A program made the position numbers and the translations under genes. The notes beneath the pieces were generated by a model. It was not told where the DNA came from. It searched no databases and saw only the letters and a program-made list of their open reading frames with translations. Below are positions 14,777-21,276 of a DNA stretch of 42,796 nucleotides, piece by piece; position 1 is the first letter of the stretch; each line of letters starts with the position of its first letter. Origin of the DNA: Bacteroidales bacterium (GTDB lineage: Bacteria; Bacteroidota; Bacteroidia; Bacteroidales; JAFGHD01); NCBI GenBank assembly GCA_016927695.1, contig JAFGME010000237.1, forward strand, positions 1-42,796, written 5' to 3'.

Positions 14777-17700
14777 TTATTTGATGATCACCTTCTTGTC
14801 AACCCAACCCTTTTCGGTTTCCAGTTTCAGGTAATATACACCTGTCTGGAATGTGCCGGTGTTGATCTGATACCTGACATCGTTTACATCGTCTTTTTCA
14901 TAAACGATCTGTCCCTGACTGTTGATCACGATGATGCGCGACATGGGCAGGTCAGACTGGATATTCACGAGGTCTGTTGCCGGGTTCGGGTAAACCACAA
15001 TGCTGGAGACGGTAATTTCGTTAACAGCATCAATAAGATCAACTTCAATTACATTGGATGCTGGTGATTCACCATTGGTATAAACTGCAGTAACATAATA
15101 ACTGTACACCCCATAGTCAGGAGCAACATCTTCAAACTCCGGAACTGTTGGCTGTCCAACAACCTCATACGAACCTGAAGGCAGGTTTTTCCTGTATACA
15201 TTATAATTTTCAAAAACAAGCGTTGCTTTATATGCACTGCCGGGGGTAAAGTTAGGTGTGATCCTGTTGTTGATCGTTCCGGGGTTTTCGATGATCTCCA
15301 TGGTATTTACCATAGGTTGGGCCGGAGCGCCTTCTGCAACAGCGCTAACCATAGCCTCGATAGCCCAGTTGTAGCTGAGGCCATAGGCTATCGACATACT
15401 TTCCCAGGCTGTACCATTCATGGATAACATATCCCCCTTATTGGCAATGGCCGGGCCTAAGTCGGTTCCTGCCGGGTGTGTACCTGTGCCATGGGTCACT
15501 TTATAACCAAACCAGAGTTCGGCGGAAGCGTCAATCTGAACAGGCGTAGTGAGCGTCACTTCGTTGAATCCGCCCGGGGTGCCGCCTGTGACAGTTTGCA
15601 TGAGCAACTGTGTTCCTGCGTTGGGGCCTTTCCAGACATATATCTCGAAAGTAGCTTCCGGGGCATCGTCATTCCACCAGAAATTGATTTTCTTGAGGAA
15701 CTGTCCGCCGTACGGTGTAAGGTCTGCCGGGAGCCAGTGCGAAGCAATATAGAAGGATCCGGCAGCCGTCAGACCTATTCCGTTTCCACCAGCTGATGTC
15801 GGATCGAACCAGCCGATCCATTCGCCGCTTGCATTAGGCTCGTCCCAGAACAACGGTACTGTCAAGCCAGTGCCGGGATAAGTTTCATAAAGATTGGAAG
15901 GAGGCAGACAGAGCTCCGTGGTCACGGTGACACAGACAGATTGTGATTCACCTTCGTCGTAAACTGCAGTTACACAATATTCGTGCTGTCCGGGGGTCAC
16001 ATTGTTATCGGTATAGGATGTAGTGGCCGGTGAAGCAAGCAGGGTGCCGTCACGGTAAACCTTGTAGTTGTTCAGGTCGTCGCCTGCATCGCTGGAAGCC
16101 CAGCCGATGAAACCTGCCATGATGTCGGCCAGGTCAGCGGGGTCAACCACTGCTGCCAGTGAGATGGTAGTGAATATCGATTTAAAGTTGCTGCCTTCAT
16201 ACTGGCATGCTGCAATACCGGCAGGTGTAGGATTGGTTACCTGGAAGAGATCGTCGCCCAGATGGGTGATCTGGTCGATATAAAGGCCTTCCTTGGCTAC
16301 GGAATAGATATCCTGCATCTGGAATGATATCCCTGCTGCACATGAACCTGCTGCGCCATTTGCACTGCCTGGAGTGGTTTCGATAATCCAGAGATCCTGT
16401 GACACGGAAGTAAGTCCTAAGTAGTCACGCGGGAACTGACCGGCATTGAAGTTACCTGCACTCGGGTATTTGTCATACAGGTAATCCTGGCCCGACAATA
16501 TCAGCGATCCGCCGCCATTGAGGTAGGCTGCAAGATTGGCTTCATCGCCGCTGCCCATGGTCTGACCGCTCTGCCATCCTTCACCTGTGAACCAGATCAC
16601 AATGTCATAATCCTGAAGTGTGGTGAGAGGGGGTCCATTCTGGGTAAGATCTGTTACTTCGTGATAGTCGTAAGCATAACCATTGGCATCCAGCGCTGCT
16701 TTAATGGCAGTCCAGTCATCCGTATAGCCGGTAATGCTCGAACTACCGTCACGGTCAACGCAGAGGATGGTTCCGGGGCCTGCGCCGGGTGCGTCCCATT
16801 CCAGATTTACTGTGGTGCACTGTACTTCTGCCGTAAGGTTCGCCGGAGGCGTAACGGCATCTAAGCATGCATTGGCAGTGGTGGTCTGGCCGCCGTTCAC
16901 GACAACACCTGCCACCTGTCCGTCAAAGTAGCCACTGGCTACAATATCCAAGGTATAGGTTCCCGGGGGAACATTGCCGATGGTGTATGAGCCGTTGGCT
17001 GCAGTTGTGCCGGTATAATTACCCGGGGTTGTGGTAACAACAGCGCCCTGTATTCCGGCTCCACCGGTACAATTGGTAATTGTACCTGCAATGGTTCCGA
17101 CAGAAGGCGTCATCTGGAAGTTATAGGTAACGGTTTGCTGACAAACAACTGTGATGCCGGGCACTGTGAGCGGCTCAAACCCGGCTGCCGTAACATTGGC
17201 TGTGTAAGTGCCTGCTGCAATATCCAAAGTATATGCGCCGCCGGCAACTGTTGTCGTCTGAACCGAACCAATCTGTACGGTGGCCCCAACAATGGGTGCA
17301 CCCGAGGTAGAGCTGGTGACAACACCTTCCACCGTTCCGATGGGATCGGGAGTGAGTGAGAAGTTCTGTATCGTGGGAGCTCCCTGAACAATGGTCACCG
17401 AAACAGTCTGTGGAGTAAAACAGGGCGCCGATGCTGTGGCATCCCATGTTCCTGTGGGGGCAACGAGTGTGTATGAGCCGCCGCCCACAGTCTGAGTTGA
17501 AAAACCTGCCACTTCAACTGTAGCGCCAACGATACCCAGACCCGTATTGGCATTAAGCACAACCCCGGTGAGGGTTCCGCTTGTGTAAAGCGGGAAATTT
17601 AACAGATCGTTAATATAATTTCCTTCGTACAGGGGAGGAACACCGTATTTGGTTTCCATCGGGTGCCACTGGTCAACATAATACTGTCCGCCGTTCATCA

Positions 17701-19735
17701 GGCCAATTGTTCCAACAGAAGGTACAAAGGCAACACCGGCATTGTTGATATTGTCGCTGATTTTAATCTTGAACCTCATGAATCCCTGCCAGTCTGTGGT
17801 AACTTCATTCATGAAGTTCGGATCAGCAATAACAAAATTGGCTTCAAACACAATGGCAAACCTGGATGGGGTATTGTCGGTAGCATTGACAATGGCATAC
17901 TTGTCGGTTCCGGTAACATCCCCCTGCAACAATTGCAGTCTTTCGTAGGTAATTTTATTGTTTGCCTTAATACTCTGCCCAAAGGCATCGGTATTATAAT
18001 CAAAGTAAATCTGAGTGCTGGAGTGATATGTACCCGGTATGGAGCATTTTAACTGAACGTCAAAAACGAGGGAGTCATTCACTACATCATAATTGGCAAA
18101 CTGCCAGCTCAGTACAGGTAATGGCGGTACGAGAGGATAAAGTTCAATGTCCTGCTGTGTGGTTTGTCCGCAGGTCACCACCACTCCGGTTACTGTGTTG
18201 GTATTGTAATCGGGATGGGTTGCCGTTACATCGTAGGTTCCTTCATCCACGTTGTCCAATGAATAGAATCCACTGGCATTGGTGGTTGCGCTGAATGTTC
18301 CGAAGGTCACACTGGCATTTTCAATACCCAGTTGGGTTACTTCGTCCAGCACATAACCTTCGAGTGTACCCAGGGCCTGGGGATCAAGGGCAAAGTCAAC
18401 GGTAATAGTACCGCCCATTGGAACAACCACGCCAGGTTGCGTTGCCGGGGCATAGCAAAGGATGGTAGCGGACACATCGTAGGTTCCGGCAGGTAAATCA
18501 AATGAGTAGGTGCCGTCGGCCAGGGTCAGTGTGGAATAAGCGCCTGCCTGGATAAGCACATTCTCAATCGGGTTGTTAGTGGAGAGATCGGTCACGGTGC
18601 CGTCAATGGTACCAATGCTTGAAGTCGGAACCATGGTTACGTCAACCGTTGTGGTGGCGTTGCACACGATCATAACCCCGTTTACTGAAGCGTCCAGATA
18701 GTCAGGGTGTGTGAAATCGATGTCATAGGTTCCGGGCACAACATCCACGATCTGGTAGAAGCCTGTGGCGTTGGTGGTTGTAGAGTATGCACCCATGGTA
18801 ACGGTAGCGCCGTCGATGGGTAACAGGGTAATGGCATCGGTGACCGTACCTTCAACTATACCGAACTCTGAGCCGGTAAGCGCAAAATCCAGTGTGGTGG
18901 TGTTCCCTGCCGTAACCACAACGCCATTATGGGTGTAAGGATCGTGACAGTCTGCCGTGGCAGTAACATCATAGGTGCCGGCGTTAACCTGCAGCGTGTA
19001 AGTTCCGTCGGCAGCAGTGGTGGTTGAATAGGTACCTGTGGATACCGAAGCATTAGCTATTCCAAGCCCGGACACGAAATCGGTAACCGTTCCCGAAATG
19101 TTACCGGGCTGGATAAAAGCCCACGTCAGCAGGTCATTTTCATAAATACCCGCATAATCGGGAGGATTACCGTATTTTGTTTCGTTGGGATGAGTGGCAT
19201 CCACATAATACTGCCCGCCGTTCATCAATCCGACACCTCCGTCCTCATCGACAAATTCAATACCGGCAAGTTCGTTCATGTCGCTGATGGCGATAGTGTA
19301 CCTCATGTAGCCTTGCCAGTCGGTGGTGACCTCGTTCATAAACATAGAGTTGGCCACCGTAAATTGCGCTTCAATGATAATGGCAAAACGGTAGGGTTTG
19401 TTGTTTGCCGCATTCACTACATTGTATTTGGGGCTCCCAGCCACATCCCCGTTAAGTAATGCCAGTTTTTCCCACCTGATCTTGCGGTCGGCATAGGTGG
19501 GTGGCGTGCCTGCAATGTTTTCGCCAAAGGCAGCCGTGTTAAAGTTAAAATAAACCTGGGTACTGCTGTGGAATGTGCCAGGCATGTCACATTTTAATTC
19601 CACATCGAAACGGGCCGAGTCGCCCGGAATAACCTGTGCATTAGCAAAACGCCAGGATAAAACAGGGTTCTGCGCCATAGCGCCAAATGCCATAAACGCG
19701 AAAACCGCTAAAAACAGTAACTTTACGTTCTTCAT
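14777..19735 (-). CDS. Giant multidomain T9SS surface protein
   Basis: A 1652-residue secreted protein. Signal peptide 1-21 (ends AMA-QNP). Residues about 22-210 and 540-720 are two copies of a beta-rich module (VLSWRFANAQV/VLSWQFANYDV, then FHSSTQVYFNF/YHSSTQIYFDY and FMNEVTTDWQG). Each is followed by carboxypeptidase-like regulatory domains, four (about 210-538) and three (about 718-960), with repeating GTVTD...GTYDVTATADC patterns. Residues about 960-1275 are an FN3-like domain split by a roughly 230-residue insert with a Rossmann/GATase-like look (TILCVDRDG, DIVIWFTGEGW, GGGSLILSGQDYLYD). Residues about 1278-1565 are a second FN3-like fold, split by a beta-rich insert (KINFWWNDDAPEATFEIYVW). 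Residues about 1570-1652 are a T9SS type A sorting domain (VVYPNPATDLVNIQSD to WVDKKVIIK). It is probably an adhesin or surface scaffold; catalytic activity is unproven. It is transcribed alone, divergent from the XRE regulator. Confidence 0.9.
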   Translation of the reverse strand: MKNVKLLFLAVFAFMAFGAMAQNPVLSWRFANAQVIPGDSARFDVELKCDMPGTFHSSTQVYFNFNTAAFGENIAGTPPTYADRKIRWEKLALLNGDVAGSPKYNVVNAANNKPYRFAIIIEAQFTVANSMFMNEVTTDWQGYMRYTIAISDMNELAGIEFVDEDGGVGLMNGGQYYVDATHPNETKYGNPPDYAGIYENDLLTWAFIQPGNISGTVTDFVSGLGIANASVSTGTYSTTTAADGTYTLQVNAGTYDVTATADCHDPYTHNGVVVTAGNTTTLDFALTGSEFGIVEGTVTDAITLLPIDGATVTMGAYSTTTNATGFYQIVDVVPGTYDIDFTHPDYLDASVNGVMIVCNATTTVDVTMVPTSSIGTIDGTVTDLSTNNPIENVLIQAGAYSTLTLADGTYSFDLPAGTYDVSATILCYAPATQPGVVVPMGGTITVDFALDPQALGTLEGYVLDEVTQLGIENASVTFGTFSATTNASGFYSLDNVDEGTYDVTATHPDYNTNTVTGVVVTCGQTTQQDIELYPLVPPLPVLSWQFANYDVVNDSLVFDVQLKCSIPGTYHSSTQIYFDYNTDAFGQSIKANNKITYERLQLLQGDVTGTDKYAIVNATDNTPSRFAIVFEANFVIADPNFMNEVTTDWQGFMRFKIKISDNINNAGVAFVPSVGTIGLMNGGQYYVDQWHPMETKYGVPPLYEGNYINDLLNFPLYTSGTLTGVVLNANTGLGIVGATVEVAGFSTQTVGGGSYTLVAPTGTWDATASAPCFTPQTVSVTIVQGAPTIQNFSLTPDPIGTVEGVVTSSTSGAPIVGATVQIGSVQTTTVAGGAYTLDIAAGTYTANVTAAGFEPLTVPGITVVCQQTVTYNFQMTPSVGTIAGTITNCTGGAGIQGAVVTTTPGNYTGTTAANGSYTIGNVPPGTYTLDIVASGYFDGQVAGVVVNGGQTTTANACLDAVTPPANLTAEVQCTTVNLEWDAPGAGPGTILCVDRDGSSSITGYTDDWTAIKAALDANGYAYDYHEVTDLTQNGPPLTTLQDYDIVIWFTGEGWQSGQTMGSGDEANLAAYLNGGGSLILSGQDYLYDKYPSAGNFNAGQFPRDYLGLTSVSQDLWIIETTPGSANGAAGSCAAGISFQMQDIYSVAKEGLYIDQITHLGDDLFQVTNPTPAGIAACQYEGSNFKSIFTTISLAAVVDPADLADIMAGFIGWASSDAGDDLNNYKVYRDGTLLASPATTSYTDNNVTPGQHEYCVTAVYDEGESQSVCVTVTTELCLPPSNLYETYPGTGLTVPLFWDEPNASGEWIGWFDPTSAGGNGIGLTAAGSFYIASHWLPADLTPYGGQFLKKINFWWNDDAPEATFEIYVWKGPNAGTQLLMQTVTGGTPGGFNEVTLTTPVQIDASAELWFGYKVTHGTGTHPAGTDLGPAIANKGDMLSMNGTAWESMSIAYGLSYNWAIEAMVSAVAEGAPAQPMVNTMEIIENPGTINNRITPNFTPGSAYKATLVFENYNVYRKNLPSGSYEVVGQPTVPEFEDVAPDYGVYSYYVTAVYTNGESPASNVIEVDLIDAVNEITVSSIVVYPNPATDLVNIQSDLPMSRIIVINSQGQIVYEKDDVNDVRYQINTGTFQTGVYYLKLETEKGWVDKKVIIK

Positions 19736-20034: not shown

Positions 20035-20048
20035 TTTACATTTATTAA
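20035..20048. promoter_or_regulatory. Degenerate operator-like site (O4)
   Basis: TTTACA-TT-TATTAA matches the TTTACA-N2-TGTAAA palindrome at 10 of 12 arm positions. Alone it would be unremarkable in AT-rich DNA; its centre is exactly 47 bp from the next site, the same spacing as the promoter-proximal pair. Confidence 0.35.
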
Positions 20049-20081
20049 TACAACACATCAATAATTACAAAATGCTTTTAA

Positions 20082-20095
20082 ATTACAAATGTAAA
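20082..20095. promoter_or_regulatory. Operator-like palindrome (O3)
   Basis: ATTACA-AA-TGTAAA matches the palindrome at 11 of 12 arm positions. It lies between the two divergent genes, about 350 bp upstream of the surface protein start and 260 bp upstream of the regulator start. Confidence 0.5.
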
Positions 20096-20290
20096 TAATA
20101 CAAAATCATAAGTTTTTTTTATTTTATATTCCTTATAGACTTATTGTATTGTTTACCAGGCCTATATGTATTATTATTTAAATTTTAACTTTAATATTTG
20201 CCCTTTCCCGGGCCCGACTGATCCTGATTGCAATATACTGTATAAGAAACAGTTCTTTTAAGATAGCCATCCTGCCGGTTGAATTGCTTG

Positions 20291-20306
20291 GTTTACATTT
20301 GTAAAC
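20291..20306. promoter_or_regulatory. Operator-like palindrome (O1)
   Basis: GTTTACATTTGTAAAC contains TTTACA-TT-TGTAAA with all 12 arm positions symmetric, extended by G/C at the ends. It lies just upstream of the -33 element of the XRE regulator promoter, the expected place for an autoregulatory operator. Confidence 0.6.
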
Positions 20307-20316
20307 ATTTAATTGT

Positions 20317-20348
20317 TTTGGCGAAATCAATTTTTGTTTTTACTTTTG
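20317..20348 (+). promoter_or_regulatory. Promoter of the XRE regulator
   Basis: TTTG at 20317-20320, 20 bases, TACTTTTG at 20341-20348, an excellent consensus match. Transcription would begin around 20351-20355, almost at the ATG (20355), so the message is probably leaderless or nearly so. Confidence 0.7.
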
Positions 20349-20353
20349 TAAAC
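20338..20353. promoter_or_regulatory. Operator-like palindrome overlapping the -7 box (O2)
   Basis: TTTTACTTTTGTAAAC matches O1 at 14 of 16 positions. It covers the -7 element and ends one base before the start codon, so a protein bound here would block the regulator's own promoter. Its centre is 47 bp from that of O1. Confidence 0.6.
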
Positions 20354-20354
20354 T

Positions 20355-20741
20355 ATGATCGACCGGATAAAAACCATATTGGATAAATTCGGGATGACTG
20401 CTTCGGAATTTGCCGACCGGATAGAAGTCAGGAGGCCGAATGTTTCACACGTTCTTTCGGGCAGAAATAAACCCAGCCTGGACTTTGCCAGCAGAATACT
20501 TGCCTCCTTTCCTGAGATTGATACGGAATGGCTGATCACCGGTACAGGGAATATGATGAAAAACATTCAGGCAGATGATGGAAACCCGGGTAAAGAGGAA
20601 TACAGCCCCCCTCCTCCCAAAGAAAAAAACGGGAACGTCCCCTACCCTTTTATAACCGGTAAAAAGAAACCCTCAGCAGGGGTAAAAAAAATCATCTTCA
20701 TTTACGAAGATGATACGTTTGAAGAATTCCGTCCAAGGTGA
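20355..20741 (+). CDS. XRE-family helix-turn-helix regulator
   Basis: A 128-residue DNA-binding protein. Residues about 1-65 form a Cro/C1-type helix-turn-helix (IKTILDKFGMTASEFADRI, VRRPNVSHVLSGRNKPSLDF, then LASFPEIDTEWLITGTGNM), a form common among small Bacteroidota regulators. The rest is a low-complexity Pro/Lys linker (EEYSPPPPKEKNGN) and a short C-terminal beta element (VKKIIFIYEDDTFEEFRPR). It starts with ATG. Two palindromes flank its promoter, so self-repression is the simplest reading, and it may also control the divergent surface protein. It converges on ndk with a 7-base gap. No toxin or phage gene is adjacent. Confidence 0.88.
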   Translation: MIDRIKTILDKFGMTASEFADRIEVRRPNVSHVLSGRNKPSLDFASRILASFPEIDTEWLITGTGNMMKNIQADDGNPGKEEYSPPPPKEKNGNVPYPFITGKKKPSAGVKKIIFIYEDDTFEEFRPR

Positions 20742-20748
20742 TCCCGGG

Positions 20749-21168
20749 TCAGTGTCTTTCGAGCCGGGAAAAGAAAAAATCACTTTCGATGATGGCGTTT
20801 TCATCGCTGTCGGAGCCATGCACGGCATTTTTTTCGACACTGGTGCCGTATAACGCCCTGATGGTGCCCAATGCCGCTTTTGAAGGATCGGTTGAGCCTA
20901 TAAGTTTCCTGAATTCTTCCACAGCATTCTCCTTTTCAAGGATAGCCGCCATGATGGGGCCCGATGTCATAAACGCCACCAGATCCTTGTAAAAAGGACG
21001 TTCTTTATGCACCTCATAGAACTTTTTTGCCTGATCCTGAGTCAGGCGGGTCATCTTTAAAGCGGCTATCCTGAAACCTGCTTCATTGATTTTGGCCAGG
21101 ATGGGGCCGGCCAGCCCTTTCTCCACAGATAAAGGCTTGATCATTGTCAAAGTGATATTTCCTGCCAT
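20749..21168 (-). CDS. ndk: Nucleoside diphosphate kinase
   Basis: Transfers the gamma phosphate of ATP to other NDPs through a phosphohistidine and so balances NTP and dNTP pools. The 139-residue protein has the family course: [21 protein letters not shown], the [18 protein letters not shown] segment, the [18 protein letters not shown] turn and the active-site histidine in [20 protein letters not shown]. The ATG at 21168 is chosen because it aligns with family starts; the frame stays open to 21225. A -7 box on the minus strand (plus strand CAAAAATA, 21203-21210) supports this. It is divergent from nrnA. Confidence 0.97.
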
Positions 21169-21276
21169 ATTGTTGTTTTTTTGGTATTGTTTTTTTTGGA
21201 AGCAAAAATATACTTTTTGAAACAATTATCGCGATTAATACGGCCATTGTCATCTGTCCCCCTGAAAAATATTATG

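Follow-up and report, generated by a model that had tools for sequence, protein, structure and literature searches.

Four palindromes before an XRE regulator gene

Within the window, that is the whole 42,796-nucleotide stretch of DNA analysed here, four palindromes of the form TTTACA-N2-TGTAAA occupy a 622-bp intergenic stretch between a giant gene and a divergent gene for an XRE regulator. The question raised by this locus is which protein reads these sites and what their arrangement means. A sequence-only reading had proposed one pair at the regulator promoter and an equally spaced pair further upstream, bound cooperatively or through looping by the XRE regulator. The features concerned are as follows.

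14777-19735, minus strand: giant gene, 1652 aa, divergent; repeated CarboxypepD_reg and T9SS sorting tail (Pfam, NCBIfam)
20035-20048, plus strand: operator-like site, weak, distal (TTTACATTTATTAA); 2 mismatches, score 7.2, next site 47 bp away
20082-20095, minus strand: putative operator, strong, distal (ATTACAAATGTAAA); 1 mismatch, weight-matrix score 18.7
20292-20305, plus strand: putative operator, strong, proximal, perfect (TTTACATTTGTAAA); 12 of 12 arm bases, score 20.9
20339-20352, plus strand: putative operator, strong, proximal (TTTACTTTTGTAAA); 1 mismatch, score 16.7, -7 box TACTTTTG inside
20355-20741, plus strand: XRE regulator, 128 aa; HTH_3, E 1.8e-7
20749-21225, minus strand: ndk, convergent with the XRE gene; from profile search and gene order

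On re-scanning, the four sites were recovered with 2, 1, 0 and 1 mismatches to the palindrome (sites at 20035, 20082, 20292 and 20339, respectively) and with start-to-start distances of 47, 210 and 47 bp, all in agreement with what had first been read. Dinucleotide shuffles of the 622-bp intergenic stretch contained on average 0.36 sites at up to 2 mismatches, and four or more such sites had a P of 6e-4; three or more sites at up to 1 mismatch, or the same spacing twice, never occurred in 10,000 shuffles. The site at 20035 carries an A in place of the near-invariant G, which 97% of sites in the family have at this position, and its score falls under the weight-matrix cut-off of 8. With this site so weak, the distal 'pair' amounts to one strong and one weak site.

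The helix-turn-helix (HTH) assignment of the XRE protein was found to be sound, with HTH_3 at 31.6 bits vs the Pfam cut-off of 23. Its predicted structure consists of a five-helix HTH (pLDDT about 95), a disordered linker and a two-strand C-terminal beta-hairpin (pLDDT 87), and in alignments of orthologues the HTH and a C-terminal motif resembling IxKIIxFYxDxTFxxYxP are conserved and the linker varies in length.

A GC-rich patch (GCCCTTTCCCGGGCCC) lies in AT-rich surroundings at 20200-20215 of the window, between both operator clusters. An Rfam search found nothing in the region, this patch included, nor did a tRNA search of the region.

Conservation of the sites with the XRE gene

Recognisable XRE relatives were detected in 49 of 60 genomes, nearly all of the same order, and a scan of GTDB genomes provided at least 80 XRE loci, among them Bacteroidales, Flavobacteriia and Pontibacter; the family is spread across Bacteroidota. 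In many families of the order, the XRE gene has the convergent ndk next to it, with DHH phosphoesterase and FKBP genes after that. No description of this regulator was found in the literature searched, which took in few subscription journals.

The palindrome was recovered by a weight matrix that was seeded with the consensus TTTACATTTGTAAA and trained on orthologues, with neither the window nor the same-genus relative in the training set. At least one motif copy (WTTACATTTGTAAW) is present within 150 bp of the start codon in all 106 usable orthologues, and at least two copies in 100 of the 106; shuffled sequence yields about 0.02 sites per 50 bp. Site density is 14.4 per kb before the XRE gene; AT-rich DNA elsewhere in these loci has 0.44 sites per kb. 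In the same-genus relative there are strong sites at -75 (proximal, TTTACCTTTGTAAA) and at -317 (distal, TTTACATTTGTATC), but a 47-bp pair was not found in it; comparison with relatives therefore upholds the sites and not the exact pair, the spacing of which varies among orthologues.

The sites persist under differing upstream neighbours, such as the giant T9SS protein in the window, the M14 peptidase in Flavobacteriia and, elsewhere, others that include BipA, TrpS and a dicarboxylate transporter, these three being assigned by eye from their sequences. Since the sites are kept although the neighbours change, they are tied to the XRE gene. The palindromes are thus very probably binding sites of the XRE regulator encoded at 20355, with the XRE protein itself as the presumed binder, and their assignment as its operators receives strong support from this phylogenetic footprinting.

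Helical phasing of operator spacing

The idea of an exactly duplicated 47-bp pair as a unit did not survive the comparison. Spacing in orthologues varies in steps of about 11 bp, which rules out a fixed, conserved pair, and the weakness of the 20035 site also speaks against it. Spacings between proximal sites peak at 13, 24, 35, 46, 57, 68, 79 and 90 bp, a lattice of 2+11n, such that neighbouring operators in the family follow the helical turn. For 275 proximal pairs the circular mean R is 0.52 at a period of 10.9-11.0 bp, lattice and matrix being drawn from the same loci and the matrix not selected for spacing. R remains at 0.49 when the set is restricted to 62 orthologues with <60% protein identity (187 pairs) and climbs with a stricter site cut-off, to 0.68 at score 14; none of 1,000 position-jittered controls reached the observed value (maximum R 0.18-0.23). 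Genomes of the order show the lattice when taken by themselves, as do the remaining orthologues, and 76% of pairs lie no more than 2 bp from 2+11n vs 45% expected. The 47-bp spacing of the window corresponds to the n = 4 step, 1.4 bp off the fitted lattice.

We read the phased spacing as a sign that dimers must sit in register on the helix, which would imply contact between dimers. Cooperative binding, as suggested from the sequence at the outset, is therefore supported by the family-wide 11-bp lattice. If dimers sat exactly on one face, the 2-bp centre offset would lack an explanation, although a zero-offset fit at 11.3-11.4 bp is nearly as good (R 0.46). In-vivo helical repeats fitted from lac loop repression data are 10.95-11.6 bp (PMC1762422), and the spacing period observed here is nearer to this in-vivo repeat than to that measured in vitro. 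Many short-range operator spacings have been tried in the evolution of this one family, and mainly those in one helical phase were kept, which makes the family a natural record of DNA phasing. The XRE operator arrays offer a ready system for studying cooperation of dimers across variable distances.

Predicted promoter and probable autorepression

The -7 element of Bacteroides promoters is TAnnTTTG (PMC7366714), and this Bacteroidota box sits within many of the sites. Of 92 proximal sites in plus orientation that match TAnnTTTG exactly, 23 are preceded by TTTG at a spacer of 19 or 20, and the reversed word occurs at these spacers in none of the 92. Two corresponding elements can be placed in the window.

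20317-20320, plus strand: TTTG, candidate -33 element, 20 bp before TACTTTTG; spacer 19-20 enriched in orthologues
20341-20348, plus strand: -7 box TACTTTTG, matching TAnnTTTG, inside the gene-nearest operator

About 6 bp separate the end of the predicted promoter, TTTG-N20-TACTTTTG (window 20317-20355), from the ATG, so that the XRE mRNA may have little or no leader. In B. thetaiotaomicron about 3.7% of 5' UTRs are under 10 nt (PMC7366714); a transcription start almost at the ATG is unusual, and lends some uncertainty to the predicted promoter.

As the proximal operators cover the -7 box, promoter occlusion is the simplest action, and repression would be the sign of regulation. The explanation that we favour, with a probability of roughly 0.8 from these sequence comparisons, is autorepression by helically phased, cooperatively bound XRE dimers at palindromic operators. 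An XRE homodimer would bind each TTTACATTTGTAAA, and, with operators that lie near-whole helical turns apart (2 + 11n bp), several dimers would bind next to one another and in register. Bound proximal operators, lying over the -7 box and gene start, would block RNA polymerase, and the XRE gene would thereby repress itself. The C-terminal beta-hairpin on its flexible linker would be the likely contact of neighbouring dimers, and a second cluster 200-350 bp upstream would either strengthen autorepression or control the divergent promoter.

A broader picture may be drawn more tentatively, at somewhat short of even odds: these could be phylum-wide, apparently undescribed small autorepressors that build a protein stack of variable length on their own promoter, in which only the helical phase is conserved, the operators change in number, position and spacing by 11-bp steps, and linker and hairpin join dimers across one to eight turns. 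For a Bacteroidota-wide regulator often found beside an ndk or M14 peptidase gene, the analysis provides a putative binding motif and a probable autorepressor role.

The distal cluster and the divergent gene

Distal sites (-600 to -150) are present in 24 of 25 loci with a divergent upstream gene. An explanation with about even chances assigns the distal cluster to the divergent gene as its operator, with XRE controlling both genes from two separate clusters and no looping. It draws on 40 Flavobacteriia loci in which the neighbour is a divergent M14 peptidase gene; in most of them the distal sites nearly mirror the XRE side, at 13-17 and 37-41 bp from the M14 start codon on its upstream side. 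Being so near that start, the cluster there very likely serves the divergent promoter. In the same-genus relative the giant gene is present in the same divergent arrangement, and a distal site has been retained along with it. However, the distal sites of the window are 300-350 bp from the giant start codon, and of 20 loci where the upstream gene is codirectional, 18 have distal sites as well. On the minus strand the 20082 site reads TTTACATTTGTAAT and holds a -7-like box (TACATTTG) pointing to the giant gene, but without a TTTG at a spacer of 19-20 bp, as is the case for distal minus-strand boxes. Outside Flavobacteriia, a role of the distal cluster in the XRE promoter itself is possible. Position and analogy with Flavobacteriia make it possible that the giant surface gene is under XRE control, and any effect on it is presumed from these.

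A DNA loop that joins the two clusters over 210-257 bp, as with Rco of pLS20 or lambda CI, appears somewhat less probable. Distal clusters do turn up repeatedly around -250 to -300, also at loci that lack a divergent gene, and looping by a 434-type HTH regulator has a precedent (PMC4207663). Against this, the distal-proximal distances lack clear phasing, with R falling from 0.39 in a looser set to 0.17 after removal of close relatives (n 157), and in view of this weak phasing looping is not claimed.

About 40 Flavobacteriia loci share a block of the XRE gene, a divergent M14 zinc carboxypeptidase gene and a gene for an Lrp/AsnC regulator. In the NCBIfam search the giant secreted protein of the window resembled Kustd1514, an anammox S-layer protein, at 230 of 1400 bits and far under the cut-off.

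Comparison with known regulators

The solved folds nearest to the XRE HTH are those of 434 repressor, SinR, CylR2 and HigA, although Foldseek against the PDB returned generic HTH matches only, none at E <= 0.001. With lambda CI and 434-type repressors the XRE protein shares an HTH fold of the 434/SinR/HigA kind and clustered palindromic operators over the repressor's own promoter; cooperative binding is a further likeness, which for the XRE protein is only expected. It differs in having a linker and a two-strand hairpin in place of an S24-like C-terminal domain, and in being chromosomal, at one locus across the phylum, with operator number and spacing that vary in 11-bp steps. The Xre-type regulator Rco of plasmid pLS20, with CAGTGAAA repeats, a 75-bp separation and a demonstrated tetramer (PMC4207663), is alike in its two operator clusters, one over its own promoter, its divergent gene and a possible loop. 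Its motif is different, however, and the predicted XRE clusters are 210-257 bp apart.

HigA antitoxins have a similar HTH and autoregulation by palindromes, but no toxin gene lies beside the XRE gene, next to which is the convergent ndk. A HigA antitoxin was rejected as a candidate, with TIGR02607 at 26.6 bits vs a cut-off of 47.7 and with ndk and the giant gene as neighbours.

Sites elsewhere in the genomes

Across genomes, sites away from the XRE gene are rare and scattered. The exact WTTACATTTGTAAW occurs four times in the 4.36-Mb genome to which the window belongs, two of them here (the 20082 site being one of the four); the remaining exact or near sites are single, some within genes, and only at this locus are exact sites clustered. 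A whole-genome scan with a loose pattern gave 30 matches vs 30 in the reversed control. A regulon of further targets was rejected, in view of this absence of enrichment and of the single, partly intragenic sites.

That the sites belong to a different regulator of global reach, such as a LexA-like S24 repressor of Bacteroidota (TTAC-N5-GTAA), is improbable. Another DNA-binding protein could in principle use them, and the SOS regulator of Elizabethkingia binds a similar half-site, TTAC-AAATT-GTAA (PMC8565304). The spacer differs, however, being TTAC-N4-GTAA here, and the sites cluster at the XRE gene and stay with it under changed neighbours. The LexA-like SOS regulators of Bacteroidota resemble the XRE protein in phylum, CI-like HTH and, in some, TTAC...GTAA half-sites (PMC8565304), but have an S24 peptidase domain and several SOS targets, whereas the XRE protein has neither that domain nor a visible SOS regulon. 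With 128 aa, no second Pfam domain and a hairpin only, it lacks the peptidase domain and so is not itself a LexA-like S24 repressor. Palindromes arisen by chance in AT-rich DNA, for which the weakness of the 20035 site and the equal genome-wide counts of the loose pattern may be cited, are scarcely credible and are refuted for three of the four sites by the shuffles and by site conservation in every usable orthologue.

In one relative from the order, with a 5.7-Mb genome, 22 exact WTTACATTTGTAAW were counted over many contigs vs 3 in the control. Several of these lie near contig ends, and they may reflect a repeat or mobile element that carries the site, or an enlarged regulon.
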